64,000 nucleotides of DNA from Mesostigma viride. Taxonomy: Eukaryota > Streptophyta > Mesostigmatophyceae > Mesostigmatales > Mesostigmataceae. Positions 11,396 to 54,394 of this stretch are shown here, piece after piece. A model generated the notes under the pieces. It was not told the origin of the DNA and made no database searches. It saw only the letters and a list, made by a program, of their open reading frames with translations. The position numbers and the translations under genes are program-made. Each line of letters begins with the position of its first letter. The stretch's first letter is position 1. The stretch lies in contig RPFO01000448.1 of assembly GCA_009746045.1 (NCBI GenBank), positions 3,622,373-3,686,372 of the forward strand. Reading direction: 5' to 3'.

Positions 11396-11850
11396 AGTTG
11401 GATGGAGACTAGGGACGACGAACAACTGCGAAAGCTGAGAGCGAATGATGATTGTATTACAATAATACAATGAGAGAGCGATGAAAGCTGAGGGCTCAGA
11501 ATGGAACTGGGCAGACTCGGGTGCTGTGGCACTCCCCAGTGCTACGCCTATATGCCTATGGCGGTGCTACCTGCAGCACACGACCAGTGGACAAGTGTAC
11601 ACTGCAATGCCATGCGACCACGTCACTAGCATCCAGCTAAGACTCGGCCCGTCAGGCCCGGCTACACCGGACCTGGCGGGTCGAACTAGCACCTAGGAAC
11701 AGTCTGGCACTAACCGCACATCGGTCCACATGACACCTCAGTACCGTACACCCTGCCGTACTGTACTGAGGTGTCCCGCTCAGCCGCGGTAGGCAATACG
11801 CGGCGCGCAGGCCGGAAATCCGTGTGTCAGCCTAAGCATCTCATCTAACT
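11396..11850 (-). repeat. 3' LTR of element A
   Basis: 455 bp, identical to 19445-19899. In coding orientation it starts AGTTAG and ends CCAACT, not the usual TG...CA. Confidence 0.95.
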
Positions 11851-11965: not shown

Positions 11966-11985
11966 CATCTGGACTGAAAAAGATG
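11966..11985 (-). other. PBS-complement hairpin of A
   Basis: CATCT and AGATG form a 5-bp stem around a 10-nt loop GGACTGAAAA (plus-strand sequence). TGGACTGAAAA at 11970-11980 is identical, in plus-strand terms, to the reverse complement of the 11 bases that directly follow the 5' LTR (19444-19434). In the element RNA the loop can therefore pair with the primer-binding position. It lies about 120 nt upstream of the 3' LTR. Confidence 0.75.
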
Positions 11986-16677: not shown

Positions 16678-16725
<48 letters not shown>

Positions 16726-17415: not shown

Positions 17416-19399
17416 TTCTTGACATTCAGTTCCTCCCTAGCCAGCTGCAGAGAGAGAAGTGCATGATTCCCCTGCTCCCTAGTATACCCCTCAGGCAGCC
17501 CCCTGACATTAATCCTATCCACAGGACGGTTTTCATTGTAAGTGGGCAACCTAGAGGGGGATGCAGGGGGAGAGGGAGAAGATGGTGTTGCTGCTGCAGC
17601 ATTCACAGGAGAGACCTGCTGAGAGGGAAGTGCTACTTGAGTGAGCTGAGCAGGATGGGCAAACATGGGCTGTGTAGGAGGGTTAGACAACATAGGGGTG
17701 GGCTGGTGGGGGTGTGAGTGTGTGTCACTTCCCGCCTCCTGCTGCGGGCCTCCTCCCAATCATGGAAGGTGGGAGAGAGGGACACTTCATCGTCAGTAGG
17801 GTTAGTAAGATTGTGATGCAACCAGGTAGGCAGAGTTAGCCACCTACCCGCCCCTCTCAGGATGGCGTTGTGTAGGAGCTCCAGCAAACGCACCAGACGC
17901 ACCCTGCTGCCCTGCACCCTCCTCCCTGAGAGGAGAGCCTGCAGGGCAGGCAGCAGGTCGTCGCACACCCTGCGTGTGCCCTCTTGGAGGTTGGGCAGGC
18001 CCAGGATGTGCGTGATGATTGCACACACCAGGCTGCCCGCCTCCGCGACGTGCATCTGCTGGCTCCTGTCGGCCAGCCCACGGAAGGAGGCTGTGGCTGT
18101 CTGTATGGCACGCCACACGGCCTCATCACCAGGGTGATGAAGTCGCGACCTTGCAGGTCGCCCTCCAGCAGTGCTGGTTGCTGCCCAGCTGCGGTGGGAC
18201 CCTGGGGCCCCTCCGGCCCTGCCAGGGACTTGTCCTTGTGCGACTAGAGGGGGCCTGCCCCCCAGAGCCGCTGGAGGTGCCCGTGACACCCTCCATGGGG
18301 GCTGCATCCCCCGCCAGCGCCGGAGGCGCCGGCGTCGCTGCCGGGGTCCCTGCGACCCCGGGCGCTTGTGTCGCCGCCGGGGTCCCTGCGACCCCGGTGG
18401 CCTCCTCAGCCACCTGGCCCCCCACGCGGGGCGGGGGAGCCTGCGGCTGAGGTTGGACCCTCTGACCTGCCAGAGGGTCCTGGGTGGCTTCACCACCCAT
18501 GGGCGTGTTGGGGGCGTCTGCCGCCCCGCGCCCCGTCGCAGGCGGCATCGCAGCCGCCTCACGCCTATCCGGGCCCCAGCCAACTGGCGTGACTTGGGGC
18601 CACGCTGGCAACGGAGTCAGCGCGATCTCTGGTCTGGAGACCACGCGCAGCGCCTCTCTCTGGCGCTGCCTGGACGCCCACTGATCAACAGTGCCGGGGT
18701 TGTGCCGCGGCCGATTGGCGAAACAGTACAGCCAAACCGCCACCTGAACCAGTGGGAGCTGCATCCTAAGACGCCCCTCGATCAGCGAGTGCACCCGATG
18801 AACCTCTATCGCGTGTATCTGCTCATCTGGAAGCAACTGAAAACGATCGAGCAAGATCCGGCCGTTCACCGCAATGAACGCCGGGATGTCGTCCTCCCCA
18901 AGGGGGAGAAAATGGGGTGGGCGCCCGAACATGACCGGGGGCGGAACATGTTCCCCATACCGGTCAATGTCCATGGTGGCCATCTGTCGGCCCACGGAAA
19001 GGTTGCCAGACGTCGCAGGTGTCTGCGACGAAAGCTCAAGCGAAGGCCGAGGCCTCGCAGGCGGCACCTCGCCATCCTCCTCGGAGGAATCACTCCGCTC
19101 ACGACCCCCGTCACCTGCGACGGGGGAACGTCGTGCCCGGGGGACCTGCCCCCCAGGTGCCATGGCGGACAAACCGCCAGTGGCAAACGGCCGCCCGCTC
19201 GCCATCCCCCGGGCGCCGGGCCCCACCTGCGGGCCCCGACGCCTGGGTTGGTCAGCGACCACCGTGCGGAAGGGACGTTGGGCGTCACCCTCGCATCGGT
19301 GGTGGAGGGCGTGCCCTCCGGCGAAAGGCGGGGTGAGGTGCGCCTGGCAGGCGCCTTCCCCTTGTTGTTGTTGCCGTTGTTGCCGTTGTTGGAAGCCAT
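17390..19399 (-). pseudogene. N-terminal Gag extension of element A, frameshifted
   Basis: The likely start is ATG at 19399 (MASNNGNNGNNNKGKAP), 46 bp after the 5' LTR. Protein-like sequence then runs through four frames: basic/proline-rich start, an acidic patch (SDSSEEDGEVP), a folded-looking block (FIAVNGRILLDRFQLLPDEQ...), alanine/proline repeats, a helical block (GDEAVWRAIQTATASFRGLADRS..., about 18130-17780), then NVRGLPEGYTREQ leading into the main Gag frame near 17390, where a GGGG run may carry an indel. Elements B and C lack so long an extension. Whether it is Gag, a captured gene, or needs recoding is open. Confidence 0.55.
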
Positions 19400-19430
19400 A
19401 TCTTTTTTTTTTTGCTTAAAAAAAATATCG

Positions 19431-19444
19431 AACTTTTCAGTCCA
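19431..19444 (-). promoter_or_regulatory. Primer-binding position of A
   Basis: In coding orientation TGGACTGAAAAGTT follows the 5' LTR directly. It begins TGG as expected for a tRNA CCA end, but the rest does not fit a tRNA acceptor/T-arm that I can recognise. Its first 11 nt are complementary to the hairpin loop at 11966-11985. Confidence 0.65.
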
Positions 19445-19899
19445 AGTTGGATGGAGACTAGGGACGACGAACAACTGCGAAAGCTGAGAGCGAATGATGA
19501 TTGTATTACAATAATACAATGAGAGAGCGATGAAAGCTGAGGGCTCAGAATGGAACTGGGCAGACTCGGGTGCTGTGGCACTCCCCAGTGCTACGCCTAT
19601 ATGCCTATGGCGGTGCTACCTGCAGCACACGACCAGTGGACAAGTGTACACTGCAATGCCATGCGACCACGTCACTAGCATCCAGCTAAGACTCGGCCCG
19701 TCAGGCCCGGCTACACCGGACCTGGCGGGTCGAACTAGCACCTAGGAACAGTCTGGCACTAACCGCACATCGGTCCACATGACACCTCAGTACCGTACAC
19801 CCTGCCGTACTGTACTGAGGTGTCCCGCTCAGCCGCGGTAGGCAATACGCGGCGCGCAGGCCGGAAATCCGTGTGTCAGCCTAAGCATCTCATCTAACT
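19445..19899 (-). repeat. 5' LTR of element A
   Basis: 455 bp, identical to the 3' LTR. It should carry the promoter, but no clear TATA box is visible on the minus strand. Confidence 0.95.
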
Positions 19900-20590: not shown

Positions 20591-21330
20591 TTTTGTCTAG
20601 GATACATTTGATGCACTGTGCAGTTTTCAGATGTGTTTGTGGGGGTTGATTGCGCCTAGCATGCATTTTATTGAAGCAATGAGTTTCCCAAGATATACAT
20701 TATATAAACTAAGACAATTGACCCATTAACGCAATGAGACAACATCAATGAGACAACATATGCCCATTGAAGGCTGCCCGCAACTTTATTCCAAGCTCAT
20801 TATTATATGATTCCAAGACCATAACTCTTCCAAGACCGTACATCTTCAAGATATAGCACTACAGACACCCACGCGGCTTCCGCGGTCATCACGCTCCTCC
20901 TCCAAGACAACTCAACCTTACAGGACGTTGGGCCATCATACGTCCGGAATAATTGTGTCACTTATTACATAACCAAACTTTTTGAGGGATCGCCATGGTT
21001 GCATGGTTTCAACACATGCGCCCTGCACTCATGTGCATCAAAGGTGTTGCGTAGTGCCAACTCAGTGTCAAAGAACTGATTCAATAATATTTCCCGTATG
21101 GCCATGAAGGCCCACATGAGTTAAACATGGCCGAGATCGAGTGATTGCATCATCCTTCTTGGCGACATCGGTCTTGACGACGTCGATGGGGAAGACGGCA
21201 GCACCTGCATGTGAACAAAAGAATCCATGAACTGTGGCATCCAAAGGCAACAACATATTAGCATCCCATTGAACACGCAGCCACGCTGACCCGGCCATCC
21301 AGCCGCCTACGCAGCCACAGAGCCAGCCAG
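20591..21330. other. No gene recognised
   Basis: AT-rich spacer with repeated AGACAACAT and CCAAGAC words around 20730-20900. No protein-like frame. Confidence 0.5.
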
Positions 21331-22918
21331 CCACGCAGTGACGCACCCCCCCAGCCACACATCCACGCATCCACGCACCCGGCACCCCCCCCCCCCAGCC
21401 AGCCACGCAGCCACGCAGCCACGCAGCCACGCAGCCACGCAGCAGCGCAGCCACGCAGCCACACAGCCACGCACCCTCCTTTCCAGCCAAGCAGCCACGC
21501 AGCCACGCAGCCACGCAGCCACGCAGCCACGCAGCCACGCAGCCACGCAGCAGCGCAGCCACGCAGCCACACAGCCACGCACCCTCCTTTCCAGCCACGC
21601 AGCCACGCAGCCACGCAGCCACGCAGCCACGCAGCCACGCAGCCACGCAGCAGCGCAGCTACGCAGCCACACAGCCACGCACCCTCCTTTCCAGCCAAGC
21701 AGCCACGCAGCCACGCAGCCACGCAGCCACGCAGCCACGCAGCAGCGCAGCCACGCAGCCACACAGCCACGCACCCTCCTTTCCAGCCACGCAGCCACGC
21801 AGCCACGCAGCCACGCAGCAGCGCAGCCACGCAGCCACACAGCCACGCAGCCACGCAGCCACGCAGCACCGCAGCCACGCAGCCACGCAGCCACGCAGCC
21901 ACGCAGCAGCGCAGCCACGCAGCCACACAGCCACGCACCCTCCTTTCCAGCCAAGCAGCCACGCAGCCACGCAGCCACGCAGCCACGCAGCAGCGCAGCC
22001 ACGCAGCCACACAGCCACGCACCCTCCTTTCCACTGAGCCAAGCAGCCACGCAGCCACGCAGCCACGCAGCCACGCAGCAGCGCAGCCACGCAGCCACAC
22101 AGCCACGTACGCAGCCACGCAGCCACGCAGCAGCGCAGCCACGCAGCCACGCAGCCACGCAGCAGCGCAGCCACGCAGCCACACAGCCACGCACCCTCCT
22201 TTCCAGCCACGCAGCCACGCAGCAGCGCAGCCACGCAGCCACACAGCCACGCACCCTCCTTTCCAGCCAAGCAGCCACGCAGCCACGCAGCCACGCAGCA
22301 GCGCAGCGCAGCCACGCAGCCACACAGCCACGCACCCTCCTTTCCAGCCAAGCAGCCACGCAGCCACGCAGCAGCGCAGCCACGCAGCCACGCAGCAGCG
22401 CAGCCACGCAGCCACGCAGCAGCGCAGCCACGCAGCCACGCAGCAGCGCAGCCACGCAGCCACACAGCCACGCACCCTCCTTTCCAGCCAAGCAGCCACG
22501 CAGCCACGCAGCCACGCAGCCACACAGCCACGCACCCTCCTTTCCAGCCAAGCAGCCACGCCGCCACGCAGCCACGCAGCCACGCAGCAGCGCAGCCACG
22601 CAGCCACACAGCCACACACCCTCCTTTCTGGACAGCCAAGCAGCCACGCAGCCACGCAGCCACGCAGCAGCGCAGCCACGCAGCCACACAGCCACGCAGC
22701 CACGCAGCCAAGCAGCCACGCAGCCACGCAGCAGCGCAGCCACGCAGCCACGCAGCAGCGCAGCCACGCAGCCACTACAGCCACGCACCCTCCTTTCCAG
22801 CCAAGCAGCCATGCACGCAGCCACGCAGCAGCGCAGCCACGCAGCCACGCAGCAGCGCAGCCACGCAGCCACACAGCCACGCACCCTCCTTTCCAGCCAA
22901 GCAGCCACGCAGTCACAC
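21330..22918. repeat. CAGCCACG minisatellite with higher-order units
   Basis: An 8-bp unit CAGCCACG is repeated for 1.6 kb and is organised into longer units that each contain CAGCAGCG, CACACAGCCACG and the spacer CACCCTCCTTTCCAGCCA. The period is about 100-160 bp with at least twelve copies. All frames on both strands stay open, giving long Ala/Trp/Arg/Cys or His/Ala/Thr frames that are not genes. Confidence 0.95.
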
Positions 22919-23681: not shown

Positions 23682-23954
23682 GGCACCAGATTTCTTTCCT
23701 AGCACCCATTTTCTACAATCGTCCCCGGCATAACACAAATCAATCAATTCGTCCAGGTGTCATCGCTTCGGCTATCAGCATCGGGCATAGTTCCCGTGGC
23801 TAGTGCCCATCATTCTTTCCACCTTGAGCGGGGCGAAGTCGCGAATTCAAGCGCGAAGTGTTTTTGAATCAAGCGGGAACTGGGTGACACTGCTTGAAGA
23901 CGTGCAGCTCCAAGGCATGCAAATGATGCAATGTATGAAAGATACGATACGCAA

Positions 23955-24490
23955 AGTTCAGGTGTTCAGGTGAAGCCGTGAAGCCGTGAAGCCGTGAAGC
24001 CGTGAAGACGTGGTGAAGACAGGTGAAGACGCGGTGAAGACGTGAAGACGTGAAGACGTGAAGACGTGAAGACGTGAAGACACGATACGGCAAGTTCAGG
24101 TGAAGTTCAGGTGTTCAGGTGAAGCCGTGAAGACGTGAAGACGTGAAGACGTGAAGACGTGGTGAAGACAGGTGAAGACGCGGTGAAGACGTGAAGACGT
24201 GAAGACGTGAAGACGTGAAGACACGATACGGCAAGTTCAGGTGAAGTTCAGGTGTTCAGGTGAAGCCGTGAAGACGTGAAGACGCGAAGACGTGAAGACG
24301 TGGTGAAGACAGGTGAAGACGCGGTGAAGACGTGAAGACGTGAAGACGTGCATGCAAGGTATCAAAGATACGATACGCCGCAAGTTCAGGTGAAGTCGTG
24401 AAGACGTGAAGACGTGAAGACGTGAAGACGTGAAGACGTGAAGACGTGAAGACGTGAAGACCAGGACTGTCACGTGAAGACTGGGACGTG
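23955..24490. repeat. GAAGACGTG minisatellite
   Basis: The 9-bp unit GTGAAGACG is repeated and arranged in larger units of about 140 bp that begin TTCAGGTGTTCAGGTGAAGC and end ACGATACGGCAAGTTCAGG. There are about four larger units. Confidence 0.9.
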
Positions 24491-24550
24491 AAGGCAAGTT
24501 GCAGCACTCGGCCGCTGCAGTCGCACGCAGGTAGAAACGAGTATTGCTGC

Positions 24551-24957: not shown

Positions 24958-25693
24958 ATGGATGAAGAATGGGACGTGCCAGACCTGGTGGATTCGGATG
25001 CGAGTTCTGAAGCTAAATGGGGCGTGGATTCTGACGGCTCTGACGACGACCTGCTTCACACGGAAATGGGGCCCGGCACGTCTTCCTCTCGAGCGAAGCG
25101 CAGTGGGAAGAAAGATGGCGCCCGGCTTCTCGCCTCCAAATTGCAGTCCGTTGACAAGGACATCGCCAAGGCCAGGAGTTGCGGTCCGACTTGTGGGGAG
25201 CATTGCCTCGAGAAGGTGGGCACCTTCCTTACCGATACTATAGGTCGTGGACTGCCTTTCGAGAGTTCCTGTACAACCAAACGGACAAGCAGCGCATGGC
25301 CTCCCTTTGCGACGTGATCCGGTCGGCCGGCGTGGGCAACATCGAGGTAGAATCCCCTGCCGACGGCGGCCGTTACAAGAAGTACATCATTACCGGCCCT
25401 TTACACGTGGACGTGGTGATTGCGGGGTGCATGTACACCGTCACCGGTTGTGCATCTGCCATCCGGAAGATGGCCGGCGTTACCCGGGCGACTTGGAACA
25501 ATCTGGTGGCGTCGGTCGTGTTGGCGAAGGAGTATTTCCTGACCGTGCATCCCAACGACCTATAGCGACTTTCGGTGTTGGTCTGGAGCACGCACCAACT
25601 GAGCGTGATGCTCGGGGGCGTTCGGAGGTTGGCGAACACGCAGCAATGTGGATGCACGAGTTGGTGCAGCAGATGGCAGACCATGACCCGACT
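24958..25693 (+). pseudogene. Gene T, 5' part (transposase-like, split by element B)
   Basis: The start is ATG at 24958 (MDEEWDVPDLVDSDASSE, acidic). A Cys motif CGPTCGEHCLEKV is followed by YRSWTAFREFLYNQTDKQR and a beta-rich block (GRYKKYIITGP...CMYTVTGCASAIRKMAGVTRATWNNLV). This order (C-x3-C-x2-K, then W-x-F, then YFL and a helix-turn-helix-like segment) resembles the N-terminal half of the widespread DDE transposase-derived proteins with a KCG/C-x2-C-x-E-K start; the resemblance is from memory and modest. Frames change near 25190 and 25560. It is interrupted after codon ...DHDPT by retrotransposon B. Confidence 0.4.
25689..25693. repeat. Target duplication of element B, left
   Basis: CGACT, repeated at 31849-31853. 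It lies within codons of gene T. Confidence 0.95.
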
Positions 25694-26038
25694 AGTTGAG
25701 TAACTCTAGAGCCCTAGGATCTGGCTCTAAGTTCCCCATGTCCGTCCGCACGCCTTCCGCTAGCGTCCGCTAAGCCGCCGGCTATAATCCGGCGGTCCGA
25801 TGCGGTCGACCGGTCTAAGGGCGGCGCCTAGGGCCGGCGCCACCTAGGCCCCAGTCCGGGGCCTTATCCGGGTCGGTACGGACAGCTAGCTTGTCCCACG
25901 GTTACGGCTAACCGGATAGGGTTTGCTGGCTAAGACATAAACCAGTGGTGGGCCAGCTCCGACAGCAGTTCTCTGTGTTCACCTTATCCCAAGCTCAACG
26001 TGACCGACCGCCATAGCTGAGCCGGTCGGGCTTTAACT
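25694..26038 (+). repeat. 5' LTR of element B
   Basis: 345 bp, AGTTGAGTAAC to CTTTAACT. It has GGCTATAATCC where the 3' LTR has GGCTATATATAATCC, within a CCGCCGG/CCGGCGG inverted repeat. Confidence 0.95.
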
Positions 26039-26050
26039 TGTATTCATAAA
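26039..26050 (+). promoter_or_regulatory. Primer-binding position of B
   Basis: TGTATTCATAAA follows the 5' LTR directly. It does not begin TGG, so a tRNA CCA 3' end cannot pair at its first bases. Its exact reverse complement is at 31149-31160. Confidence 0.7.
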
Positions 26051-26057
26051 AATCCCG

Positions 26058-27240
26058 ATGGCTTCCGGTACACGGAGCCGCACGGGCGAACACACAGATA
26101 CGCCAAGTGGCGAGGCCGCAGGGTCCGTCCTGCCACGCTTTAGTGCGGACGAGGCCACGAGGTTGATGCAAACCCTCGTGGCGCAACCTGAACTGGCCAA
26201 GCAGTTCAAGCATCTGATGCTTGCTGCTGACGATGCACTAAATCGCGGCCCTCTCAAGCAAACGGAGGTGCCCGCTGATCTACGGCCGACTATACGGCGG
26301 ACGACGCAGCAGATTTTCTAGCTGCTCTCAAGCGTCTGCGCGATGGACGCGCAGACAAAGATTCGGAGCTGATTGGCAAGTTCCGTGCAGTATTCTGCAG
26401 TACAACAAAGCACCCAAACATTGCCAATCTAGTTCGCATTGCGGACGACAACAAACAAACCTGGGAAGTTTTTTACAACGGTCTAGATGCCCACTTGTCG
26501 CGGTCTAAGGAAGAGGCCGACGAGCAAGCCTTCAACGACTTCGAGGGCTATGCAGTTAATAAGGCAAATTTGCCCGGGGCTGCACGTGATTTCCAGGTCT
26601 TCGTGCACAAGCACAAGCTGCTAGATACTCTCAAGCCCATTTTCCTGTGCAATCGATTTCTCAAGAAATGCGACCTGTCGTCGGATGTGCATCTGACCAT
26701 AGCGACGGAACTCAAAAAGAAGAGTGCCGTCAGTTTCGACGAGGGCATGCTGTATTTGATCTCATGCTTCAAGAGTGCGCAGTCCAAGCCGGCTGCCTCG
26801 GCTGCTCTGCCATCCCTGCGCAAGGTGGATGCCGGCGCGTCTTCTTCTTCAGGCGCAGAGGCTCCAATTACGCGGTCGGAGCTTACGGCCATCCTGAAAA
26901 AGGTCGTCGGCCACGGCAACAACGGGGGCCAGCGAGGGCGCAAGCGCGGGCATGGTGGCGACGCCAAGCAGGGTGATAATCCCCCGGCCAAGCGGCAGCA
27001 GGGGGCGTCTACTGACCGCAAGCAACGCTGTGAGCGCTGCTTCGGACGTCGCCATGTCCGGGATGACTGCCGAGTTCGCCCGGACCTGGAGCTCGAGGAC
27101 AACCTTTGCCGCAAGTGCCACGACGTTCTGCGTGGTCACAGCGTGGAGGCGTGCAAGGCCAAGCGCATCGTCGTCCACGGCACACGCGAGGAGTGGGCAG
27201 AGCGACGGGCAGCACGAAAGTCAGGTGAGAGCACGCTCGA
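26058..27240 (+). pseudogene. Gag and zinc knuckles of element B
   Basis: Starts at ATG 26058 (MASGTRSRTGEHTD). The frame shifts near 26276-26292, after PADL, into a frame continuing YTADDAADFLAALKRLRDG and the Gag core (SELIGKFRAVFCST...QTWEVFYNGLDAHL). A basic GGQRGRKRGHGG stretch precedes zinc knuckle CERCFGRRHVRDDC (CX2CX4HX4C) and a second, CX2CX6HX4C motif ending VEAC. Gag forms the particle shell and the knuckles bind element RNA. Confidence 0.8.
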
Positions 27241-28838
27241 TACCCCTTCTTTTGCTCAATGCGTCACGCTGAACCGGGCCGTCGTAGAGCCTGACGTCGT
27301 TCCTAAAAGCAACGTGACTGCATCCTCTGTCTCATTCCGTGATGTGCTCACGCAATCCGTTGATGCTGCTCTGGCTCTGTCGCGCCAGGATCACGTGCTT
27401 CCTGAGCACGGGTCTACAATGCGTGACCTAAGCAATGTGGTGTCTTCTAGGTCGGGTGTGTACAACGCCGAGCGACCAAGCACTACTGCAGCACCCCAGC
27501 TAGATACTGGGGCGGTTGGGCCTATGAGGAATGTTGTGACAGTGCAAGAGAATGCTGGGCGGGCAGATGTTCTCGGTACACACCACCCTAGTGTGGATCT
27601 TCACATTGGCAAGGTGCTCACACGGGCGGCCTTTCGTGCAGCCTCTGAAGCTGCCCAGTTAGCCAATGTCACTACCCCAGTAGTCACCCCACCTGTTGAG
27701 AATCCTGACAATGCCACTGCACCTCAGGCTGTCACCCTGAAACTGTTAGCATACCAGATGCACCGTGCATACGGGCATGAGGCCCAAGCCGAGGTAGAGG
27801 GGGCACACATGTTGGGGGCACCTTTATACAACGAGCTGAAGAATGTGCGTGCTCAGTGTCCTGCCTGCATCAAGATCAGGAAGAAGTCGCGTAGGCGGCA
27901 TGCCAAGACTCCACCCTTGGAGCGAGGGTACCTTGTGGGGGATGTCATGCACATGGAAGGGGGGGACACCTATTTCATAGTCAAGGATAGGTTCAGCAAG
28001 GCCACCTACATTGAGCCGCTGCCCACATGTTGAGGCTGACCTGCACAGGGCTATCAAGATCAGCCTGGCTTTCTTTCATCCCGTAGTGGAGCTCATGCTA
28101 GACCAGCAGTTCCGCTGTGTGCAAGGTTTGCCGGGGATGGAGGCCGTGGTCATCGTGGGGCGTGAGGATCACGGCAATATGGGCATGATAGATCGCACTG
28201 TAAGCTATGTCAAGACTGTGGCAGCCAAGCGACAGGATAACCCACATGGCAAATCCTACGCGGTCAAGACGGCGTGGTGCAAGGAGCTCATGCATGTGTG
28301 CAACCATAGGCACGTGCTTGATGTCAAGGGCTTTGGGCTAGTCACGCCTCGGGGGCTGTCAGCGGGCACCTACTCACCCGAGGTAGTAGAGGCATACCAA
28401 CAGCATCTACAGGATACCGCCGCCAAGCTGCGGCTCAAGGATGCCACGCTGCCTGATTTGTCTAGCGCTTTTGAGGTCGGGCAGTTGGTCATGTTCCACA
28501 AGGAGAGCTCGCCCAGCGGCAAACGGGGCACCATGCAGGGGCCTGGGGCCATCACAAAGTTAGACTGGCCGCTGCGGGTCATAGACATAGAGTGGAATGA
28601 TCGGGTGTATAGGGTACCATGGGCATCGGTGGCAGGCTATAAGCAAGGGGATAGCATGGAGAGTGAGCTGGCAGCCAACAGGGCACTGGGGTGGGTAGTG
28701 AAGGATAATGCGCCTGTCGTAGCATCTGAGGTGGTACCCCACGGGTCGCTCCCAGGGGCAGACACAGCTACACCCCCCCCTCCCCTGGGCCCCAATATGA
28801 CCCCGTGGATGGGTGGGATGAGGATGGGGTGGGTTTGA
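27241..28838 (+). pseudogene. Integrase region of element B
   Basis: After a linker, the zinc-binding N-domain MHRAYGH...CPAC (about 27757-27880) leads to the catalytic core: D in LVGDVMHMEG, D in LMLDQQFRC and, where A and C have E, an Asp in MIDRTVSY, all with the same spacing. The C-domain has VGQLVMFHKES and WASVAGYK. A frameshift at about 28022 (after IEPLP) and another near 28825 break the frame. Loss of the catalytic Glu suggests weak or dead strand transfer, or an atypical acid. Confidence 0.85.
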
Positions 28839-31122
28839 CGGGACCTAGTGCACGTAGTGACTCACCTCCTGTGCTAGCCACGGATAATGTGGGAGGCCCG
28901 CCTAGCGTGGCCTCGCCGGAGGGTCAGGGTCCTGCCCATGCGCCTCGCCCACCTAGGGACCTGGCTTCAACGGTCACGGCCTTGTGGCGTGCTCAGGCGC
29001 TTAAAGCGAAAGCTGCATCAGGGGTGGCTCAGGTCAAAACTCTCTCACAGGGGGTCAGGCCGGTTAAGTCAGCCTTGTTTCCTACGTGTAGACCGTGGCA
29101 GCTGGTGGCTGTGGACACGCAAGCATCCGTGTCTATTATCTCTCGTCGGGCAGCCACCCTGTATCCAGTGCTAGAGTCGCCGTACAAATCGGTGACCGAC
29201 TTTGCAGGCACTTCGGCATATCAAGTTACCGGGATGGTGGTGCTGCCGGTGTTGGGCATTGACACGCCGTTTCACGTCGTGGATGGCTACGAGGATGTGG
29301 CCTTGCTGGGCGAACCTTTCGTATCATACCCGGGGTTCTCAGTGTCCGCTGACTTGCTGTCAGTCGCGGGGGTGGGCAGCATCCCGCTTCGCGAGTACCA
29401 CGCTCCATTGGGGGTGGTGGTCGGGCAGCCCGGCGTCGTGCGGCGCTTACCGATGGCGGCGTTTTCCACACCGCCGCTCGTCCAGTCCATCATTCAGCCT
29501 CAGGATTGGCACCCGCGCAGCTTCGGCCTCCACTCACACTCACTGGCGGCGGATAGCCCTGTGACGTGGGAGCAACTTGTCCTGGACTGTCAAGATCCTC
29601 TCAAGTTTGCTTTGTGGCGCGACGCGTTCATTCGAGCCAAGGAGCAGTGGCGAGAGCGCGAGGTCTACCGAGGATTGGAGAGTGTGCCAGCCGGGGCCAC
29701 GCGGTTGCGGTTGAAGTTCGTGCTCACCTACAAGCCGGACGAGACCAACTCTTCGGTGGTGTTCCGGGTAAGGCCCGTGGTCACGGAGACGAAGGGGTCC
29801 TCCCCGCTGGACGCCAAGGATCTTTATACCCCTGGGCTCAACCATGTTTCGCATCGGCTACTGACGGTCATCTACTTGGGCAAGCGGAACGCGGGCAAGG
29901 ACTACGGGATGTGGTGCGGTGACTTTCAGCGGGCATTCCTCCACAGCGACGCTGGGGTCGCGCAGCAAACATGGCAAGGCACCCGCTACGTGGTGAAGGT
30001 CCCGGTGGTCTGGCAGGATGGCACCATTGGCAGCGAGTATATCGAGCTGTTGACAGGGGTGGAGGGGCTGCAGAGCTCTCCCATCATCTTCCGCATTTCC
30101 GCGGAGGAGGTCTTGCAGAGCTTAGGGGCCACGTACCATCGCGCGGATCCTAACTTCTTTGTGGTCCCCACCGGCGTCCCTGGCGAGCCAGCCCTCTTCG
30201 TGTGGCATGGCGATGACTTCAAGCTGGTGGCACCTCGCACCTTTGCTACCCAGTTTCTTGCTGCAGTGGCGGCTAAGTTTCCCCTGGGCAGGGCGGTGGA
30301 TCATGAGGAGGGTAAACCCGTGGTGTTTTGCGGCGTGCAGTCTACGTTGCAGCGGGATTCGCGTTCTGGCGAATGGGTCATGCACATGCAGGATAGCCGC
30401 AACTATGTGGTTGACCTGCTGGCCGACCTCCCGTCCCCGCTGTTGGCAACCCATGGGCCCTCGGTTAAGGGCAAGCTCGGGTGGTTGGCGGACACGGTGG
30501 CACCTGATTTGGCAGTGCTCGCTCGCCTGCCCGATGATGTGCTGGAAGGACTAGGGTCCATTCATGTTCGGCGGCAGCTGGCCATGACGCCCGGCATTGT
30601 GCTTCGTGGGCTCGATTGCTCACAGCCGGTGCACCTCGAGATAGTGACGGATGCTAATCTAGAGACGCGCACAGTCAGCCAAGTGCGGGCCCGCATGGGG
30701 GCACTGTTCTTTATCAGCAATGAGGGCAGCCTGGCATGTTGTTAGATTGGTACTCGCGCTTGCACAGCCGCATTGCCACTAGCCCCAACACGGCTGAATG
30801 CCGGGGCATTGTTTCAGCTATCTCACATGGCATGTGGCTGCGGTACTTGCTGGGTTGGGTATTTGGCTCGTGTGGGTTCACTCTTCACTGGACTAGCACG
30901 GTGCACACTGACTCACAAAGTTGTTTGGCCTTCCTTGACAATCCCTATGCGCGGTCACAGGACGTTGATTACCTCGTACTCGCTGAGGCGGCCTCCTGCG
31001 TCACGCGTCTCCAGCACATCGCGGATGAACTCAATCCCGCGGATGCACTCACCAAGGAGGCGCGGGAGGCTGCCCCGCAGTACGCAGTGTTGCGCAAGCG
31101 CATGACGATGCAACACCCGTGA
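28805..31122 (+). pseudogene. Protease-like domain, RT and RNase H of element B
   Basis: Residues 95-185: retropepsin-like, VDTQASVSII (DTQ for DTG) and ALLGEPFV. About 300-560: RT with LKFVLTYKP, DFQRAFLHS and WHGDD (about residue 468). RNase H begins near LEIVTDANLETRT. A single-base shift at about 30735 moves the frame; the rest (DWYSRLHSR, AECRGI, HTDSQS, LNPADALTKEA) ends with TGA at 31122. Order and motifs match elements A and C. Confidence 0.9.
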
Positions 31123-31125
31123 GCC

Positions 31126-31179
31126 ACACAGGGTTACGGCTCGGGCGCTTTATGAATACAGCCATAACTCACCCTGTGT
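31126..31179 (+). other. PBS-complement hairpin of B
   Basis: A 9-bp stem ACACAGGGT/ACCCTGTGT and an inner stem (31135-31141 with 31160-31166, one mismatch) enclose an 18-nt loop. Positions 31149-31160 (TTTATGAATACA) are the exact reverse complement of the first 12 nt after the 5' LTR. It lies just after the pol stop and about 320 nt before the 3' LTR. Confidence 0.8.
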
Positions 31180-31477
31180 TGCTAGCATTCACGAATATCA
31201 TGGTGGTAGTTTTTTTGCTTGTCCTGACCATACCCTAGCCACGTTGGACGGTGCCTTGGGCCCGTCGGCGGGTCACTGGTCCTAATAAATGGGTCACCTT
31301 TTGTCTGGTGGCATAGTTGTTTTTTTCTCGATACTTATTACATCACTATTCATGTGTGATCACAAGGGCGCGGGTCGATACCGTGGTGATTTTGACGGCC
31401 TTGAGGCCCCCTTGAGTTCCCTACCTTAGAGGGTTTTGTATGGTCTGCATTTGATGTAATTATTTTGATAATTAATC

Positions 31478-31499
31478 AAAGAACAAAAGAGTATGTCGG
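31478..31499 (+). promoter_or_regulatory. Polypurine tract candidate of B
   Basis: AAAGAACAAAAGAG, then TATGTCGG, directly before the 3' LTR. It fits the pattern of A and C. Confidence 0.55.
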
Positions 31500-31848
31500 A
31501 GTTGAGTAACTCTAGAGCCCTAGGATCTGGCTCTAAGTTCCCCATGTCCGTCCGCACGCCTTCCGCTAGCGTCCGCTAAGCCGCCGGCTATATATAATCC
31601 GGCGGTCCGATGCGGTCGACCGGTCTAAGGGCGGCGCCTAGGGCCGGCGCCACCTAGGCCCCAGTCCGGGGCCTTATCCGGGTCGGTACGGACAGCTAGC
31701 TTGTCCCACGGTTACGGCTAACCGGATAGGGTTTGCTGGCTAAGACATAAACCAGTGGTGGGCCAGCTCCGACAGCAGTTCTCTGTGTTCACCTTATCCC
31801 AAGCTCAACGTGACCGACCGCCATAGCTGAGCCGGTCGGGCTTTAACT
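31500..31848 (+). repeat. 3' LTR of element B
   Basis: 349 bp with the TATATATAA stretch at about 31588-31597; otherwise the same as the 5' LTR. Confidence 0.95.
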
Positions 31849-31853
31849 CGACT
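31849..31853. repeat. Target duplication of element B, right
   Basis: CGACT, as at 25689-25693. Confidence 0.95.
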
Positions 31854-34045
31854 CATGCTGCCGTTGTCTTCATGGACGTCATGTCCATCAAGGAGATGCA
31901 CGCCGTGTACGTTGAAGACGTGGTGGCAGAAGCGGGGGAAGGGGCCAAGGTGCTAGGCTACAACGCATTCTACCGCATCTGGCGCACCTACTGCAAAGGC
32001 GACTGCCGGCGGCGGCGCAGCCGGCACGCGGCGGGGCGGGGCAGTCGGCGGGCAGCGGGGCGGCGCAGCCGGCACGCGGCGGGGCGGGGCAGTCGGCGGG
32101 CGGTGGGGCGGGGCAGTCGGCGCACGGCGGGCCGGCGCAGCCGGCACGCGGCGGGGCGGGGCAGTCGACGGGCGGCGGGGCGGGGCAGCCGGTGCGCGGC
32201 AGGGCGGCGCCGTCGGCGGGCGGCGAGGTGGCGCAGCCAGCGCGCAGCGAGGTGGCAGCGGCGGCGCAGCCTGCATGCGGCGGGGCGGGGCTGTCGACGG
32301 GCGGCGGGGCGGGGCAGTCGACGGGCGGCGGGGCAGGGCCGTCGGCGCGCGGGGGGCCAGCGGCGCTGCCGGCGCGCATGGGCGGCGGGCCGGCGCAGCT
32401 GGCATGCGGCGGGGCGGGGCTGTGGACGGGCGGCGGGGCAGGGCCGTCGGCGCGCGGGGGCCAGCGGCGCTGCCGGTGCGCGCGGGCGGCGGGCCGGCGC
32501 ACCTGGCATGCGGCGGGGCAGGGCTGTCGACGGGCGGCGGGGCGGGGCAGTCGACGGGCGGCGGGGCAGGGCCAGCGGCGCTGCCGGCGCGCGTGGGCGG
32601 CGGGCCGGCGCAGCTGGCATGCGGCGGGGCGGGGCTGTCGACGGGCGGCGGGGCGGGGCAGTCGACGGGCGGCGGGGCAGGGCCGTCGGCGCGCGGGGGG
32701 CCAGCGGCGCTGCCGGCGCGCGCGGGCGGCGGGCCGGCGCAGCTGGCATGCGGCGGGGCGGGGCAGTCGACGGGCGGCGGGGCGGGGCAGCCGGTGCGCG
32801 GCAGGGCGGCGCCGTCGGCGGGCGGCGAGGTGGCGCAGCCAGCGCGCAGCGAGGTGGCAGCGGCGGCGCAGCCTGCATGCGGCGGGGCGGGGCTGTCGAC
32901 GGGCGGCGGGGCGGGGCAGTCGACGGGCGGCGGGGCAGGGCCGTCGGCGCGCGGGGGCCAGCGGCGCTGCCGGCGCGCATGGGCGGCGGGCCGGCGCAGC
33001 TGGCATGCGGCGGGGCGGGGCTGTGGACGGGCGGCGGGGCAGGGCCGTCGGCGCGCGGGGGCCAACGGCGCTGCCGGCGCGCGTGGGCGGCGGGCCGGCG
33101 CAGCTGGCATGCGGCGGGGCGGGGCTGTCGACGGGCTACGGGGCGGGGCAGCCGGCGCGCGGCGGGCCGGCGGGCGGCGGAGCGGCGGAGCGGCACAGCC
33201 GGTGCCTGAAAAACGCGGTCGCTCAATGAAGGTGCACCACGCCGTCTTCTTCCAGGTACAGGGCAACACAGAGACCTGGTTGTCCTACCGGACCACGGAG
33301 TCCCAAAAGACGCCGTGGCAGCCCGCGGGGACTCGACAGGAAGGCGCGCCACGGTGCGGGAAGGCGATGACACAGCCTTACAGGTTTGATGCGGAGGGGC
33401 GGCCGCTGTTTGGCGTCCGACTTGTGGATCCAGACCGCATTCCGATGTTGCAGGACACCCCAGCCTTCGCACCATTGAACATGGAGTTTCTGGGGAAGGA
33501 GCTGGAGTCGATCAAAACAAGGGTCGAGAAGTTGCCCCATGGCATCTGGCAGTGGTACTTTCCGCCCGACACCATCAAGCCAAACAAGGCCTTTTTTCGC
33601 AAGTCAAGTCCCACATGCCCCTGAGGAGGTGCCTGAGGAGTGGCGCCCTTTGCCGTGGCCATCTCGCGCGGACATCTCCGCCCTGCGTGAGCACGATGCA
33701 GCGCCTGAACCACCACCGACGCAAGAAGAGCACTTCATGGCGTTGGTCGACGCAGAGGCGGTGCGCGTCACCCCGCTGGTAGACCGAGTTCGTCATGATG
33801 GCCACACACAGCAGGAATGGGCGGCAGAAGACAGGGCCATGGCAGCCAAGGTCGCTTACTTGAAGCGCATGCAAGGCGTTGAGAAAGGCTCCGCTGTTCT
33901 ATACTGGCACCCTTCAGCTGGTATTCTCTGCAACTCGAAGCTCACGTGGACTCCAGTCCTCTTTGGCATCATCAAGGAGGTGGTTGCGAAGGAGGATGGC
34001 GGCCAACCTTCTATTGAGCTCTTTGTATACCGCGCTAAGCATTGA
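31854..34045 (+). pseudogene. Gene T, 3' part
   Basis: Directly after the right duplication the reading frame of the 5' part continues (HAAVVFMDVMSIKEMHAVY...GYNAFYRIWRTYC), so the LTR insertion split one frame. The FYRIWRTYC segment resembles the FYRLWR motif before the Cys pairs of transposase-derived proteins. A 1.2-kb GC-rich minisatellite then replaces what should be the catalytic core. After it, KVHHAVFFQVQGNTETWLSY...LPHGIWQWYFPPDTIK reads until a frameshift near 33595, and continues (PHAPEEVPEEWRPLPWPS...) to TGA at 34045, next to the MITE. Confidence 0.4.
32000..33200. repeat. GC-rich minisatellite inside gene T
   Basis: Units of GGCGGGGCGGGGCAGTCGAC, GGCGGGCCGGCGCAGCTGGC and GCGCGGGGGGCCAGCGGCGC recur for 1.2 kb with longer repeats of about 120 and 600 bp. 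Frames stay open on both strands, giving Arg/Ala/Gly or Pro/Ala-rich sequence. It looks like an expansion within the gene rather than a domain. Confidence 0.9.
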
Positions 34046-37991: not shown

Positions 37992-38119
37992 TTCATGTCC
38001 CACGTAGCTCCCACAAAAACCAGCATCTTCATTAAAACAATAAGTGGAAGCATACATGTGACACTAATTGACATGCCCGGAGGCACGCCGTTCAAGGCCC
38101 TTCATGAAGTACGTTGCCC
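37992..38119 (-). repeat. 128-bp duplicated segment, copy 1
   Basis: Identical to 38572-38699, from TTCATGTCCCACGTAGC to GAAGTACGTTGCCC. On the minus strand it reads as a hydrophobic stretch (VTCMLPLIVLMKMLVFVGA), but no gene is defined. Confidence 0.95.
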
Positions 38120-38152
38120 TAGAGGCAACCAAGACAAGGGTGGGTGGGTGGG

Positions 38153-38574
38153 GAGCAAAGAAAGAGGCCGACAAAACCAGCCAGAGCGGCTTTTAGTCGC
38201 AAAACCTCCCTTATCCCTAGCTAACTGACGTCATTAAACCCTTATGTTTAGTGGATGCTAGTAAGACGCTAACCGTACAGACCGGGGGTAGAATATCCCG
38301 AATCTGCACGGCTAGTATTAAATAATGCGTAGGTTGTTCTTTTCAGGGGCACTGCACCTCACGCCCCGTTCCGCCCGGGTATAATCAACCCAAGCGCGGA
38401 ACGCACATTTTATTTAATTCATTTTTCAACCATGCACTATATTGCATCTACTAATCACAAAAGCTCTAGCCAAACAGCTACGAGTAAACACTGCGACCTA
38501 TAAGCCGCTCATCCAGCGGCCTCTTGTTCCCGCATTCACGTATAGAAGAAACTCCGTTCAAAGAACCCCGATTC
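38153..38574 (-). repeat. 422-bp duplicated segment, copy 1
   Basis: Same as 39535-39956. It starts GAGCAAAGAAAGAGGCC and ends AGAACCCCGATTC (plus strand). It abuts the second 128-bp copy. No LTR-like ends and no target duplication. Confidence 0.95.
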
Positions 38575-38699
38575 ATGTCCCACGTAGCTCCCACAAAAAC
38601 CAGCATCTTCATTAAAACAATAAGTGGAAGCATACATGTGACACTAATTGACATGCCCGGAGGCACGCCGTTCAAGGCCCTTCATGAAGTACGTTGCCC
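38572..38699 (-). repeat. 128-bp duplicated segment, copy 2
   Basis: Joined directly to the 422-bp segment (3-bp overlap TTC), unlike copy 1. Confidence 0.95.
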
Positions 38700-39534
38700 A
38701 ATCACCCCCGCCCTGGCTTTCCCTTGAAGCCGCACTCCACCTTGCTCGTTGTCACAAGTGACCGCCCTGCCGCAAAACGGGAGCCCCCCACATCGGGAGG
38801 CGTGTGCCCGGCGGCTGTGGATGCATGGCCAGGCCCAAAAAGGCCCAGCGCATTTGCACTGCGATTGCGCACGGCCAGCCTATCATGACCCCTCTCGGGG
38901 CCCCGAGTCGGTACCGCTATGGCCGTCTCCCCATAGACCCGGGGTGCTTCGAGAAAAAACGTGGACCTAGCCCAGGCCCCGCCAGCCCGGATGCCCGAGG
39001 CCACAGCCCCAGGCACCTGGCTGAACGAGAGTCCGTTCAGCCAAGACCGCATTCCCCCCGAGGTTTCTATGCGTGGGGAAAAAATTTCTAGCTTAGACGC
39101 TTTTCCCATCGCCGTCCCCAGCCCCAACCACCCCCCCCTCGGCGGAAGGCAATTGCAAAGTTTGCTGGCCAGCAGCAATTTCCGAAGAAAAAGCCGCAGG
39201 CCGCGGACCGAGACACGGGTCGCCAGTGCCAGCCATCCGGCTCCAACCCGGGGTGCAAGCATCCCCAGGTACGGAGCACCAGCTCGCGCACTGGGCCGAC
39301 CAAGCGACAGTTGAGCACCTGTCACGGCATCCGGCCCACCAAAGACCCCAAGCTGGGGAAAAGGTGCGGACCGGAGGTAATCTTTTTCTTTTCTTTTAGT
39401 TAACCGGGCGAGGAACTACGCCTGGCCGGTTAACAACTGGAAGTCTCACCACTGGCCAAGTGGCCAGTGCAACCAGTGCTTTTGGGATTTTGCTCCGCAG
39501 CACCCATAGCTGCGGCTGCCGCCGCAACGACAAC
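38700..39534. other. Unique segment between the 422-bp repeats
   Basis: GC-rich. The minus strand has a 207-codon frame (38702-39325) with an Arg/Leu-rich middle, not recognised, and the plus strand has competing frames. It may be part of a rearranged mobile element or a captured fragment. Confidence 0.35.
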
Positions 39535-46364: not shown

Positions 46365-47060
46365 AGTTAACGCCAAGCGCATTGGCGTGATCCTGATTCG
46401 GCATATCTCTGCGATTCCAGCGGCACCGGAACGAGTTCATTCCGACAAGTATCAAGAAAGTTATGGCGTTCCGACTTCCCGGTCGCGCGCGAGCGCGAGC
46501 CGGCTGTTCTTCTAAGTCGGACGTGAATATTTGCCGACGACATATGGGGTCGACAGTAATTCCTGGGCTGACAGGAATTAGGTGCTGTACCTACGACGGT
46601 ATTGGATTAATACGTCGTACGCAGGAAATAGGAACCTTAACCTGTGGTCTGTTGGTACCGCAGGCTTAGTCCTGGACTTCTAGGTGCAGATGCAATAATC
46701 ACTGTGGTGACTGTACTCTGTGGTCACTGTGCCTGTATGGCAGACCTACTGTATAGGAGCTGGGCGCTGTACAGGTAGTGAATACTGTACCGGGGTGTTA
46801 TTACTGAGCAGGCCTCCTAGGCTGCTCAGGACTAGCAAGCACAGTGCACAAGTATATAAACAATAGGCCAGTGCCAAATGGGCATCTCTTGCGAGCCCGC
46901 CTCACGTGTTGTGCCTTGACTTGGCAAGCTCGTGTACAAGCCTCAAGTGTTGAGCGCTGTAAACATTATCCGATTTAACAAAGCTCCGTTTCCAACCATA
47001 TTCACACATTGCTGCATTGCAACCATATCCTTCACATTGCGTGTGCGAAGAACGTTAACT
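46365..47060 (+). repeat. 5' LTR of element C
   Basis: 696 bp, with 8-bp inverted tips AGTTAACG/CGTTAACT. Confidence 0.95.
46853..46860 (+). promoter_or_regulatory. TATA box in 5' LTR of C
   Basis: TATATAAA, about 200 bp before the LTR end, is a good candidate for the element promoter. The same box is in the 3' LTR at 54186-54193. Confidence 0.6.
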
Positions 47061-49359: not shown

Positions 49360-52300
49360 TTGAGCCTGCACACATCCCTGAACCCTGGAGGGTGCCCCCA
49401 GGGGTGTGTAATGAAGCTGCTAGTGACAGCAGTGAGGGGCAGCCCCATGCTCTAGTGAAAGAGCCTATTGGACACGATGGGGCAAGCTTGGTTACCACAG
49501 AGAGTATGCCAGCTGTAGCTGCAGTGGTTACTCGCCAACGTGCCCGCCATGGCGGTGCTGAGCCTGAGGTAGGACCTGGTGATGTGGACCCAGGTGGATC
49601 TCAGAAGCATTCTGACCGTGCAGGACTGGCACAGGATGGTCAGGATGAGGATAGGGCTGGAGACAGTCTGACAGGCACGACCCTGGTGCCTCCTGTACAT
49701 AAGGGATCTGTACATACCTTGAGTGCTAATAATGACAATAAAAGGTTTTCTCTCTTGTATGACATTGCCTCAAGGTTGCATACCATGTTTGGCCATGCAG
49801 CTCAGTCTTTGCAAGTTGCTAGACGGCTGGGAGGAAGTGAGTTGTACTCCATCTGCCAACAGGTTGCTCAAGCTTGCAAGTGCAGGCTAGTTGCTAGAAA
49901 GCCCAAGCAGTCTCATGCCAGGACTCCTATTTTGCAGCCAGGCCATGTGCAGGTAGATATTCAGAGAATCAGGGGTTTGAAGCTGCTGGTGGCAGTGGAC
50001 AGATATACCAAGTACAAGACCCTAGAGATCCTGCCTGACATGGAGAAGCCTACATTGATTGCTGCTCTGAAGTTGACAAGGAGCAGGTACCCTGGGTTGG
50101 AGTTGTTGCAGTGTGACATTCAGTTTGAGTGCTGTGAGAACCTGCCAGAGTTTCCAGAGTTGCTGATTACACCCAGGGAGAGCCACGGCCAGCAAGGGGT
50201 GGTGGAGAGAGCCATCCAAGAGATCAAGACTGTGCTGCTGGTGGAGAGGATTCCAAGGACGTCATCTGCCATTGTGACATCTGCATGGCTACGTTCTGTG
50301 GAGGACAGGCTGAACCTGAGGACTCCCATGTTCTTTGGTGACATTGCCATCAATCCTCTTATGCTGCATACCAGGATGCTGCCAGCTGATGCTGAGCAGG
50401 CATGGAAGGAGAAGCTAGAGGCCAAGTTCCTCAAGCTGAGGCAGAAAGACAAGGGCTGGAGTGTCCTAGAACCTAACGTTGGACAACAGGTTGTTGTGTG
50501 GAAGGAACCAAGCTTTCCAGGGAAACGTGGCAGCTGGCATGATGGGGTGGTGACCCGAGTAGAAGCCGCTGGCCATAAGTGCTGGGTGGCCATTGATGGC
50601 TCCCAAGCAGTGCACCGTCTGTCCTGGTCAAAGATCCGTCCCCGGGGAGGTAATCAAGGAGACCTCTTCCAGGTGCCCGCTGGTGTACAAGGCGGGGGTG
50701 ACGTGGAGCTTCCTGATCAGGGTGCTACAGCTGTATCGAGCCCTCAGGGTGACCCTGGCCCGGCCCCTGGGGTACCTTCACATACGGTGGTTGGGCAAGC
50801 AGGCGGACAGGCTGCACCTCCGGAACGGCCCGACACCAGGCCTAGGGGTGTGCGTCTATCAGATATTGTACAGGCTTTGCAAAGAGCCAAGAAGGAGCCT
50901 AAGGTGTCCAAGCTTGTCCAGTTGGATGAACCTGAGGTAGCTGCCATGGAGATAGATACCAATGCACAGGTTTCTGTCATGGGACCTCAGCATACAGGAG
51001 AACTGCTGGTCGGAGAACCAAGTTGCCCCTGGGTGTCTGATTTCAGTGGTAGGACGCATCTAAGGGTGTTGGGAGAGGTTACTGCCCCTGTCATGGGTGT
51101 GGATGTGACCTTCCTTGTCCTAGAGGACTATGATGGCCCTGTGATTTTGGGTCAGAATTTTCTGGGCAATCCTGGGATTTCTATCAGAGCTACAGCTCTG
51201 AGAAGAGATGGCTGGGGGATGATTCCCCTAGAAAATTTCAGGACAACATTTCCAGTCAGGTGCAGGGCCAAGCCGGTCAAGGGTGTAAAATGGGATGAAG
51301 GGGAGGTGCCCCCAGCGGCCAGTTTGGTGATTCCAGCTGTGTTGCACCCCAGCAGTATTGGCATAACTCACAGGAGCCTTGCTGCACACTCTCCTTTGAC
51401 ATATGACCAGCTGGTCCAAGAGATGAGCTCGCCTACTTTGTTTGAGGCTTGGAAGCTCGCCTTCTCCAAGGCATTGGAGGAGTGGTTGCAGTTTGAGTGT
51501 GCTGCACCAACAGACAGACGTCCCCCAGCATCAAGGAAGCTTGCTTTGAGATTTGTGCTGAAGAGGAAGGTTGTGGATGAGGTATCAGTGCCCCATGTCA
51601 GGCCTGTCCTGAATGAGTATCACGGCACGGGGAGTCTGCCAGGAGAGGAGCTATACACGCCAGGGATGCTACACGACACATGGAGAATTTTGCTATGTCT
51701 CTACGTGGGGTTGCTGAACAGGGGAGCAGCTATGTCATCAGTGCTGCTGGACTTCAAGAGGGCATTTTTAAAATCTGATCCAGAAGTGGCCAGGAGGGTG
51801 TGGAAGCAGGATGAGCCTTACTGTGTTGAGGTGCCTGCCATCTGGAAGCTGGAGCTGCATCAACAATTCCTGGTTATTCTGAAGGGCCTGGAAGGACTCA
51901 GGTCGAGCCCAATCATCTGGAGACTCACGCTGCAGGAAGCTCTGATCAGTGAGTGTGGCTTGAGAGTGTCTTCAGTTGATCCCTGTTTGCTGCTGGCCCA
52001 ATGGGAGGGTCTGCCAGTGTATGCTAGTTTGCATGGAGATGATCTGCATTTGCTAGCCCCCACGACCTGGCTGAAGAAGTTTATTCCTGTCATCAGTGGC
52101 AAGTTTTCACTGGGCAAGGAGCTGTGGCAGGAGCCCAACAAGCCTGTAGTGTTCTGTGGAATGCAGGCTACCCTGTTCAGGAGGGACGGGGAGTGGAGTA
52201 TCAGGCTTCAGGCTGGAGGAGATTATAAACAGACCATTGTGAAGGCCTTGCCAGAGAAGATCACCCAGGCTGCAGGACCTGAGTTGAGAGGCATGTGGGC

Positions 52301-53503: not shown

Positions 53504-53545
53504 ATAGGGACTCATTGTAATTTGTTTGTGCTCCTGAGCCAGTAT
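53504..53545 (+). other. PBS-complement hairpin of C
   Basis: CTCA/TGAG, GG/CC and ATA/TAT form an interrupted stem around a 20-nt loop (53515-53534). The loop starts with TTGTAATTTG, the exact reverse complement of the 10 nt after the 5' LTR. It lies about 150 nt upstream of the 3' LTR. Confidence 0.65.
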
Positions 53546-53696: not shown

Positions 53697-54394
53697 AGTT
53701 AACGCCAAGCGCATTGGCGTGATCCTGATTCGGCATATCTCTGCGATTCCAGCGGCACCGGAACGAGTTCATTCCGACAAGTATCAAGAAAGTTATGGCG
53801 TTCCGACTTCCCGGTCGCGCGCGAGCGCGAGCCGGCTGTTCTTCTAAGTCGGACGTGAATATTTGCCGACGACATATGGGGTCGACAGTAATTCCTGGGC
53901 TGACAGGAATTAGGTGCTGTACCTACGACGGTATTGGATTAATACGTCGTACGCAGGAAATAGGAACCTTAACCTGTGGTCTGTTGGTACCGCAGGCTTA
54001 GTCCTGGACTTCTAGGTGCAGATGCAATAATCACTGTGGTGACTGTACTCTGTGGTCACTGTGCCTGTATGGCAGACCTACTGTATAGGAACTGGGCGCT
54101 GTACAGGTAGTGAATACTGTACCGGGAGTGTTATTACTGAGCAGGCCTCCTAGGCTGCTCAGGACTAGCAAGCACAGTGCACAAGTATATAAACAATAGG
54201 CCAGTGCCAAATGGGCATCTCTTGCGAGCCCGCCTCACGTGTTGTGCCTTGACTTGGCAAGCTCGTGTGCAAGCCTCAAGTGTTGAGCGCTGTAAACATT
54301 ATCCGATTTAACAAAGCTCCGTTTCCAACCATATTCACACATTGCTGCATTGCAACCATATCCTTCACATTGCGTGTGCGAAGAAAGCTTAACT
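53697..54394 (+). repeat. 3' LTR of element C
   Basis: 698 bp, ending GCTTAACT where the 5' LTR has CGTTAACT. Confidence 0.95.

Follow-up and report, generated by a model that had tools for sequence, protein, structure and literature searches.

A putative element-encoded primer in the 3' untranslated region of divergent Copia-related LTR retrotransposons from Mesostigma viride

The stretch of Mesostigma viride DNA analysed here (contig RPFO01000448.1, positions 3,622,373 to 3,686,372; 64,000 nt, hereafter the window) holds three long terminal repeat (LTR) retrotransposons of one divergent lineage, each with both LTRs and a perfect 5-bp target-site duplication (TSD): element A on the minus strand, and elements B and C on the plus strand (Table 1). 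Our subject is the primer-binding site (PBS) directly after the 5' LTR of these elements and its complementarity to a sequence in the 3' untranslated region (UTR) of the same element, from which reverse transcription may be primed. Three further elements, designated H, M and N, were taken from the same 440-Mb genome. In all six elements read, the LTR ends are AGTT..AACT and not TG..CA, and 5-bp TSDs accompany the five elements for which flanks were read (A, B, C, H and M; N is not among these).

The lineage shares several characters with Ty1/Copia elements (Pseudoviridae) and departs from them in others. Likenesses comprise the 5-bp TSD, a match of element A to Pfam RVT_2 (39.9 bits against a cut-off of 31.6) and an integrase encoded before the reverse transcriptase (RT), as indicated by the open reading frames (ORFs) of A and C, by alignments and by a fold match. 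Differences begin with B and C, neither of which has an RVT_2 match at E 0.1. Furthermore, the domain order is gag-integrase-protease-RT-RNase H (C, 49743-52946; A, 12917-16287, minus strand; B, 27731-31122), whereas protease precedes integrase in the usual Copia order. The RT catalytic motif of the lineage is HGDD, which differs from Ty1/Copia, as do the LTR ends and the motif of the protease-like domain, DT[QN]A and not DTG. In alignments, this domain follows integrase in A, B, C and P0001, with a conserved LG near its end; P0001, from an ENA contig, is the one relative of C returned by a protein search (66% identity). Integrase and protease-like domain lie within one ORF in C. A low-confidence model of C's protease-like domain (mean pLDDT 54, core blocks 60-80) had retropepsins as its best matches in the PDB (best E 1.4e-3, prob 1.00), with no PDB match at E 0.001 or below. 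An integrase model (mean pLDDT 53) matched lentiviral integrases (best E 6e-7, TM about 0.15), and the HHCC and D,D,E residues of the integrase region are conserved in A, C and P0001.

Pairwise identity across RT and RNase H is 34-40% among A, B and C. The M. viride genome itself contains at least 39 matches at 100% to the 1198-aa ORF of C, at least 87 at 99-100% to the RT of A, and at least 150 at 100% to a 202-aa stretch of the RT of B; judged by these matches, the three families are abundant and young. Frame breaks occur in the window copies of A and B, and some other copies of A have a single long ORF around the RT, of up to about 1600 aa. A protein search for relatives of A found none, and pattern scans of public viral-contig and genome-contig collections found no relatives of the lineage.

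Element B has, directly after its 5' LTR, 12 nt that are the exact reverse complement of a sequence in the 3' UTR (Table 1), the sole such match in the internal region. This complementarity, first pointed out in a first-pass annotation of the window, is real and is confirmed here. The annotation had also credited A and C with a like pairing between unrelated sequences, and we find it over 11 nt in A and 10 nt in C. The complement lies 119, 339 and 172 nt from the 3' LTR in A, B and C, respectively, while the next best anchored run over the whole element, LTRs included, is 6, 5 and 5 nt. As a measure of chance, each internal position of an element was taken in turn as a pseudo-PBS and compared with the last 1 kb of that element, the true PBS being counted. 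Runs of at least the observed length were reached by 3 of 6494 positions in A, 1 of 4361 in B and 5 of 5536 in C. Across families, PBSs of A, B and C gave runs of at most 5 nt against the last 1 kb. Copies of B were sampled from 624 first-look candidates, of which 40 were scored and 30 loci fetched. The 12-mer after the LTR was unchanged in all 14 of the 5' ends read, window copy included, as was the hairpin at 31126-31179, together with its PBS complement, in 16 of 16 3' ends of other copies. Such constancy among the copies shows the youth of family B, not covariation.

More distant members were available among the LTR-end loci read beyond the window (L070, L071, L076, L072, L083 and L085), as B had inserted into further lineage members, whose sequences appear in the flanks of its copies. 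Both ends were read of H (LTR of 481 bp at 99.4%, TSD GTACT) and of its sister M (LTR of 473 bp at 100%, TSD AACAC). These two share the PBS TGAATTTTAT and a complementary site, ATAAAATTCA, which is 294 nt upstream of the 3' LTR. The PBS of N, a B-like family (48% over 264 aa of RT), was predicted to begin TGTATTCACAG from its own 3' UTR, with the PBS of B as guide, before its 5' end was read. That end begins TGTATTCACAA, with 10 of the 11 predicted bases correct and hence a 10-nt match, and the complementarity holds in all three copies of N read. All six elements with both ends read are thus positive (A 11, B 12, C 10, H 10, M 10 and N 10 nt), with five distinct PBS sequences among them: TGGACTGAAAA, TGTATTCATAAA, CAAATTACAA, TGAATTTTAT and TGTATTCACA. 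The count leaves out families D, E (=F) and J, which had no LTR pair between their pieces (nested or truncated copies) and were set aside for this reason, not as negatives; in the pieces of D scanned, where the 5' end itself is probably missing, there was no AACT-anchored PBS of at least 8 nt. A further relative of the lineage was seen at the left end of L076.

In three of the three other members examined (H, M and N), the 10-12 nt that follow the 5' LTR covary with the 3' sequence, and the interpretation of the first-pass annotation, that the pairing is conserved and not the sequence, is supported. Compared across families, the pairing is kept while its sequence changes, as three results show. 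Firstly, a PBS set against the 3' UTR of another family gives runs of 3-5 nt, except for the relatives B and N (8) and the sisters H and M (10). Secondly, among the 120 possible assignments of PBS to 3' UTR in the five families, the true one alone reached the observed sum. Thirdly, eight of ten paired columns (1, 2, 3, 5, 7, 8, 9 and 10) differ between families in both partners of the pair, and columns 4 and 6 are invariant; between B and N, position 9 shows a double change from T-A to C-G. By a first-order model, the matches have expected counts of 5.6e-5 to 1.1e-3, each in the 3' UTR of the element concerned, and of 19677 pseudo-PBSs, 12 reach 10 nt against the UTR of H, 11 against that of M and 11 against that of N. 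An ordinary Copia element of the same genome served as control (L065; LTR TGTG..AACA, TGG-type PBS TGGCATCGGAG, and, by eye, the order gag-protease-integrase-RT-RNase H with DTGA). Its anchored run was 5 over the internal region and 4 over the last 1 kb.

The position of the pairing is equally constant, and in six of six elements it starts with the base that adjoins the 5' LTR. One step into the LTR, A and B could add a G-U pair and H and M a U-A pair, and C and N could add none. Watson-Crick extension into the LTR is thus impossible in A, B, C and N, and the match of B stops exactly at the LTR boundary, as the first-pass annotation had stated; in H and M, one U-A pair could be added. The first base copied from a primer becomes the LTR end, and the LTR edge is therefore where a primer must sit. 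As read from the six elements, this register favours a primer over cyclisation. The PBS begins with TGG in A and lacks such a start in the other five.

Minimum-energy folds place a stem around the site in all six elements. The complement had been described as lying in a hairpin loop, which is firm for B, in which the outer stem is perfect and a 72-nt fragment spanning the hairpin has a better fold than each of 200 shuffled versions (z -2.81), and weak for A and C, whose folds are not clearly better than shuffles; among the six, only M (z -2.27) joins B in this respect. Rfam gave nothing in the window at gathering level and nothing within 31000-31500 at E<=1, while a joint search of L070, L072 and L021 at E<=1 gave one weak match, wcaG (E 0.62), outside the sites; a tRNA search of the window found none. 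Since these scans returned no match at the sites, no known ribozyme or tRNA-like structure backs a cleavage mechanism. The motif GGGCGC directly precedes the primer-like site in B and is found 1-10 nt before it in H, M and N (four of six elements in all; L070 for H and M, L072 for N), but not in A or C. It was noticed post hoc and not used as evidence, and is a possible binding or processing signal.

Most LTR retroelements start reverse transcription from a host tRNA, and the known self-primed ones fold back the 5' end of their RNA. From the comparisons above, we consider that these divergent Copia-related elements probably prime their own reverse transcription from 10-12 nt in the 3' UTR. The primer-like sequence lies 119-339 nt upstream of the 3' LTR, within a predicted stem. 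Directly 3' of it, the element RNA, either the same molecule or a co-packaged second copy, would be cut, and the freed 3'-OH would anneal to the PBS in cis or in trans. RT would then extend the primer into the LTR, the 3' end of the primer thereby defining the LTR end. Plus-strand synthesis would copy the primer and so rewrite the PBS in each cycle, which would account for perfect pairing over 10-12 nt only, while the sequence drifts between families. The cut RNA would lose its 3' R, and a second packaged RNA would be the template for strand transfer. In its fuller form, wherein a cut in the hairpin loop yields an element-encoded primer of 10-12 nt that sets the LTR boundary and rewrites the PBS, both drifting together, the proposal is on balance plausible.

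If true, a primer at the 3' end would free the element from the tRNA set of its host, would call for a dedicated RNA cut, and, through copying, would make PBS and primer evolve together. Some of the elements with no PBS match in tRNAs or in the 5' LTR might be explained in this way. In the REXdb survey, whose search for self-primers was made in the 5' LTR, 6% of elements had no PBS found by way of either (PMC6317226, excerpt). Because the families are numerous and their copies nearly identical, the ends of their RNA and cDNA should be open to measurement, provided that the elements are expressed. No title or abstract opening describing a self-primer in the 3' UTR was found in a literature search that was incomplete and does not establish absence from print.

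Among known systems, Tf1/Sushi elements belong to the Ty3/gypsy group, and two plant lineages, TAR and Tcn1, are likewise predicted to self-prime. As in Tf1/Sushi, the elements described here encode a complement to the PBS, of about 10-12 nt, by the LTR edge, and most of their PBSs have no TGG start. They differ in having that complement in the 3' UTR. The 5' LTRs of the three elements scanned, A, B and C, have no Tf1-type complement, the longest PBS complement there being 5-6 nt, which supports, for these three, the contrast that the first-pass annotation drew with Tf1-type priming from the RNA 5' end. In Tf1 itself, the PBS pairs with the first nucleotides of its own mRNA, and the same source describes fungal GalEa, a Copia-group element without a conventional PBS, which has a Conserved Hairpin Site thought important for transposition (PMC5445492, excerpts). 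GalEa resembles the present lineage in group, in possessing a hairpin and probably in lacking a conventional PBS. Its hairpin, however, directly follows the 5' LTR and has conserved stem sequences (PMC5445492, excerpts), whereas the lineage described here has its structure close to the 3' end, with a primer-like sequence that varies between families.

Several observations weigh against self-priming from the 3' UTR and should temper the interpretation. A molecule cut at the site would lose the 3' R on which its own first strand transfer depends, so that a second RNA is required, and a tRNA or other small-RNA primer may also match each PBS. The six elements provide fewer independent cases than their number implies: H and M are sisters, and B and N have their first 8 nt in common. 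The 11th base predicted for N was wrong. The predicted folds of A, C, H and N are weakly stable (z -0.56 to -1.15), and B alone has a fold that leaves the whole site single-stranded; in the other five, some of it is paired. The ordinary Copia control is a single element. Lastly, the PBS of A has a chance 10-nt anchored run in the whole internal region of C, and a single 10-nt match over several kb is for this reason insufficient by itself.

Cyclisation is the main rival, although we regard it as unlikely. Here, the sequence at the PBS and the 3' loop would hold the two RNA ends together in the manner of CYC5 and CYC3 of Ty1, and a separate primer would be used. Complementarity between the two RNA ends is present in the lineage, and such long-range 5'-3' interactions have precedents in Ty1, where CYC5:CYC3 pairing is required for efficient initiation, and in Ty3, in which the parts of a bipartite PBS likewise lie at both ends of the RNA (PMC4974528, excerpts). 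In Ty1, however, which is primed by a tRNA, CYC5 is found downstream of the PBS (PMC4974528, excerpts), while in all six elements of our lineage the 5' partner is neither separate from nor downstream of the PBS, and it is the PBS position itself that pairs. Pairing that runs from the LTR edge, with at most one Watson-Crick pair inside the LTR, occupies the place of a primer; cyclisation offers no reason for this register and would block the PBS position for any other primer. Of the two uses suggested in the first-pass annotation, placing a primer is, from the register of the pairing, the more probable.

Priming of each family by a host tRNA fragment or other small RNA, with the 3' copy as mimic or decoy, appears less probable still. 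Half-tRNA PBSs are found in the Copia groups Osser, Bryco and Bianca (PMC6317226, excerpt), and the TGG start in A would suit a host primer. Nevertheless, several such RNAs would be needed for five differing, mostly AT-rich PBSs within one lineage of one genome, the TGG of the ordinary Copia control is missing from five of the six PBSs, and a mimic has no evident reason to keep the LTR-edge register. Regulation at the RNA level, in which loop and PBS are paired until packaging so that one masks the other, with priming by a conventional primer, strikes us as highly improbable; an exact duplex of PBS and loop would presumably block the PBS, yet masking leaves unexplained both the LTR-edge register in all six elements and the differences in PBS sequence between families. 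Chance, or selection of the best match by a reader who tried many, can practically be dismissed: 10-nt runs do arise at about 1 in 1000 positions, as with the cross-family run of A's PBS in C, but five distinct PBSs are all positive at a fixed register, each with the low expected count given above, and H, M and N were read only after the hypothesis had been stated.

Table 1. Positions, in window numbering, of elements A, B and C and of their features.
Element	Feature	Position	Strand	Basis or remark
A	Whole element	11396-19899	minus	LTR pair and perfect 5-bp TSD GAGAC
A	5' LTR	19445..19899	-	
A	PBS TGGACTGAAAA	19434..19444	-	
A	TTTTCAGTCCA, complement of PBS	11970..11980	-	119 nt before 3' LTR
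A	3' LTR	11396..11850	-	TSD GAGAC
B	Whole element	25694-31848	plus	LTR pair and perfect 5-bp TSD CGACT
B	5' TSD CGACT	25689..25693	.	LTR/TSD reading
B	5' LTR, AGTTGAGTAACT..CTTTAACT	25694..26038	+	
B	PBS TGTATTCATAAA	26039..26050	+	Directly after LTR
B	Integrase region, two frames in window copy	27731..28661	+	tblastn with A and C proteins
B	Retropepsin-like domain, DTQA in place of DTG	28967..29578	+	After integrase; alignment with C, A and P0001
B	RT and RNase H, two frames	29579..31122	+	
B	Outer stem, 5' arm	31126..31134	+	Perfect 9 bp
B	GGGCGC	31143..31148	+	Directly before primer-like sequence
B	TTTATGAATACA, exact complement of PBS	31149..31160	+	Proposed primer 3' end at 31160
B	Outer stem, 3' arm	31171..31179	+	9 bp
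B	3' LTR	31500..31848	+	Then TSD CGACT at 31849-31853
C	Whole element	46365-54394	plus	LTR pair and perfect 5-bp TSD CTATG
C	5' LTR	46365..47060	+	
C	PBS CAAATTACAA	47061..47070	+	
C	Integrase, HHCC and D,D,E residues	49743..50645	+	Foldseek matches are lentiviral integrases
C	Retropepsin-like domain, DTNA	50844..51413	+	After integrase
C	TTGTAATTTG, complement of PBS	53515..53524	+	172 nt before 3' LTR
C	3' LTR	53697..54394	+	TSD CTATG

The two LTRs of C differ at the end that precedes the PBS, reading GAAGAACGTTAACT in the 5' copy (47040-47060) and GAAGAAAGCTTAACT in the 3' copy (54374-54394). Elsewhere in the window, tandem repeat arrays with spacings of 8, 12-18, 24, 50 and 104 bases were noted at 831-1400, 21256-21800, 23893-24500, 31965-33270, 40484-40907, 43654-45100 and 56513-57100. 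Interleaved direct repeats of the A..B-A-B type, at 61332-63476 and 37999-39955, resemble by eye small DIRS/PAT-like split-repeat elements.

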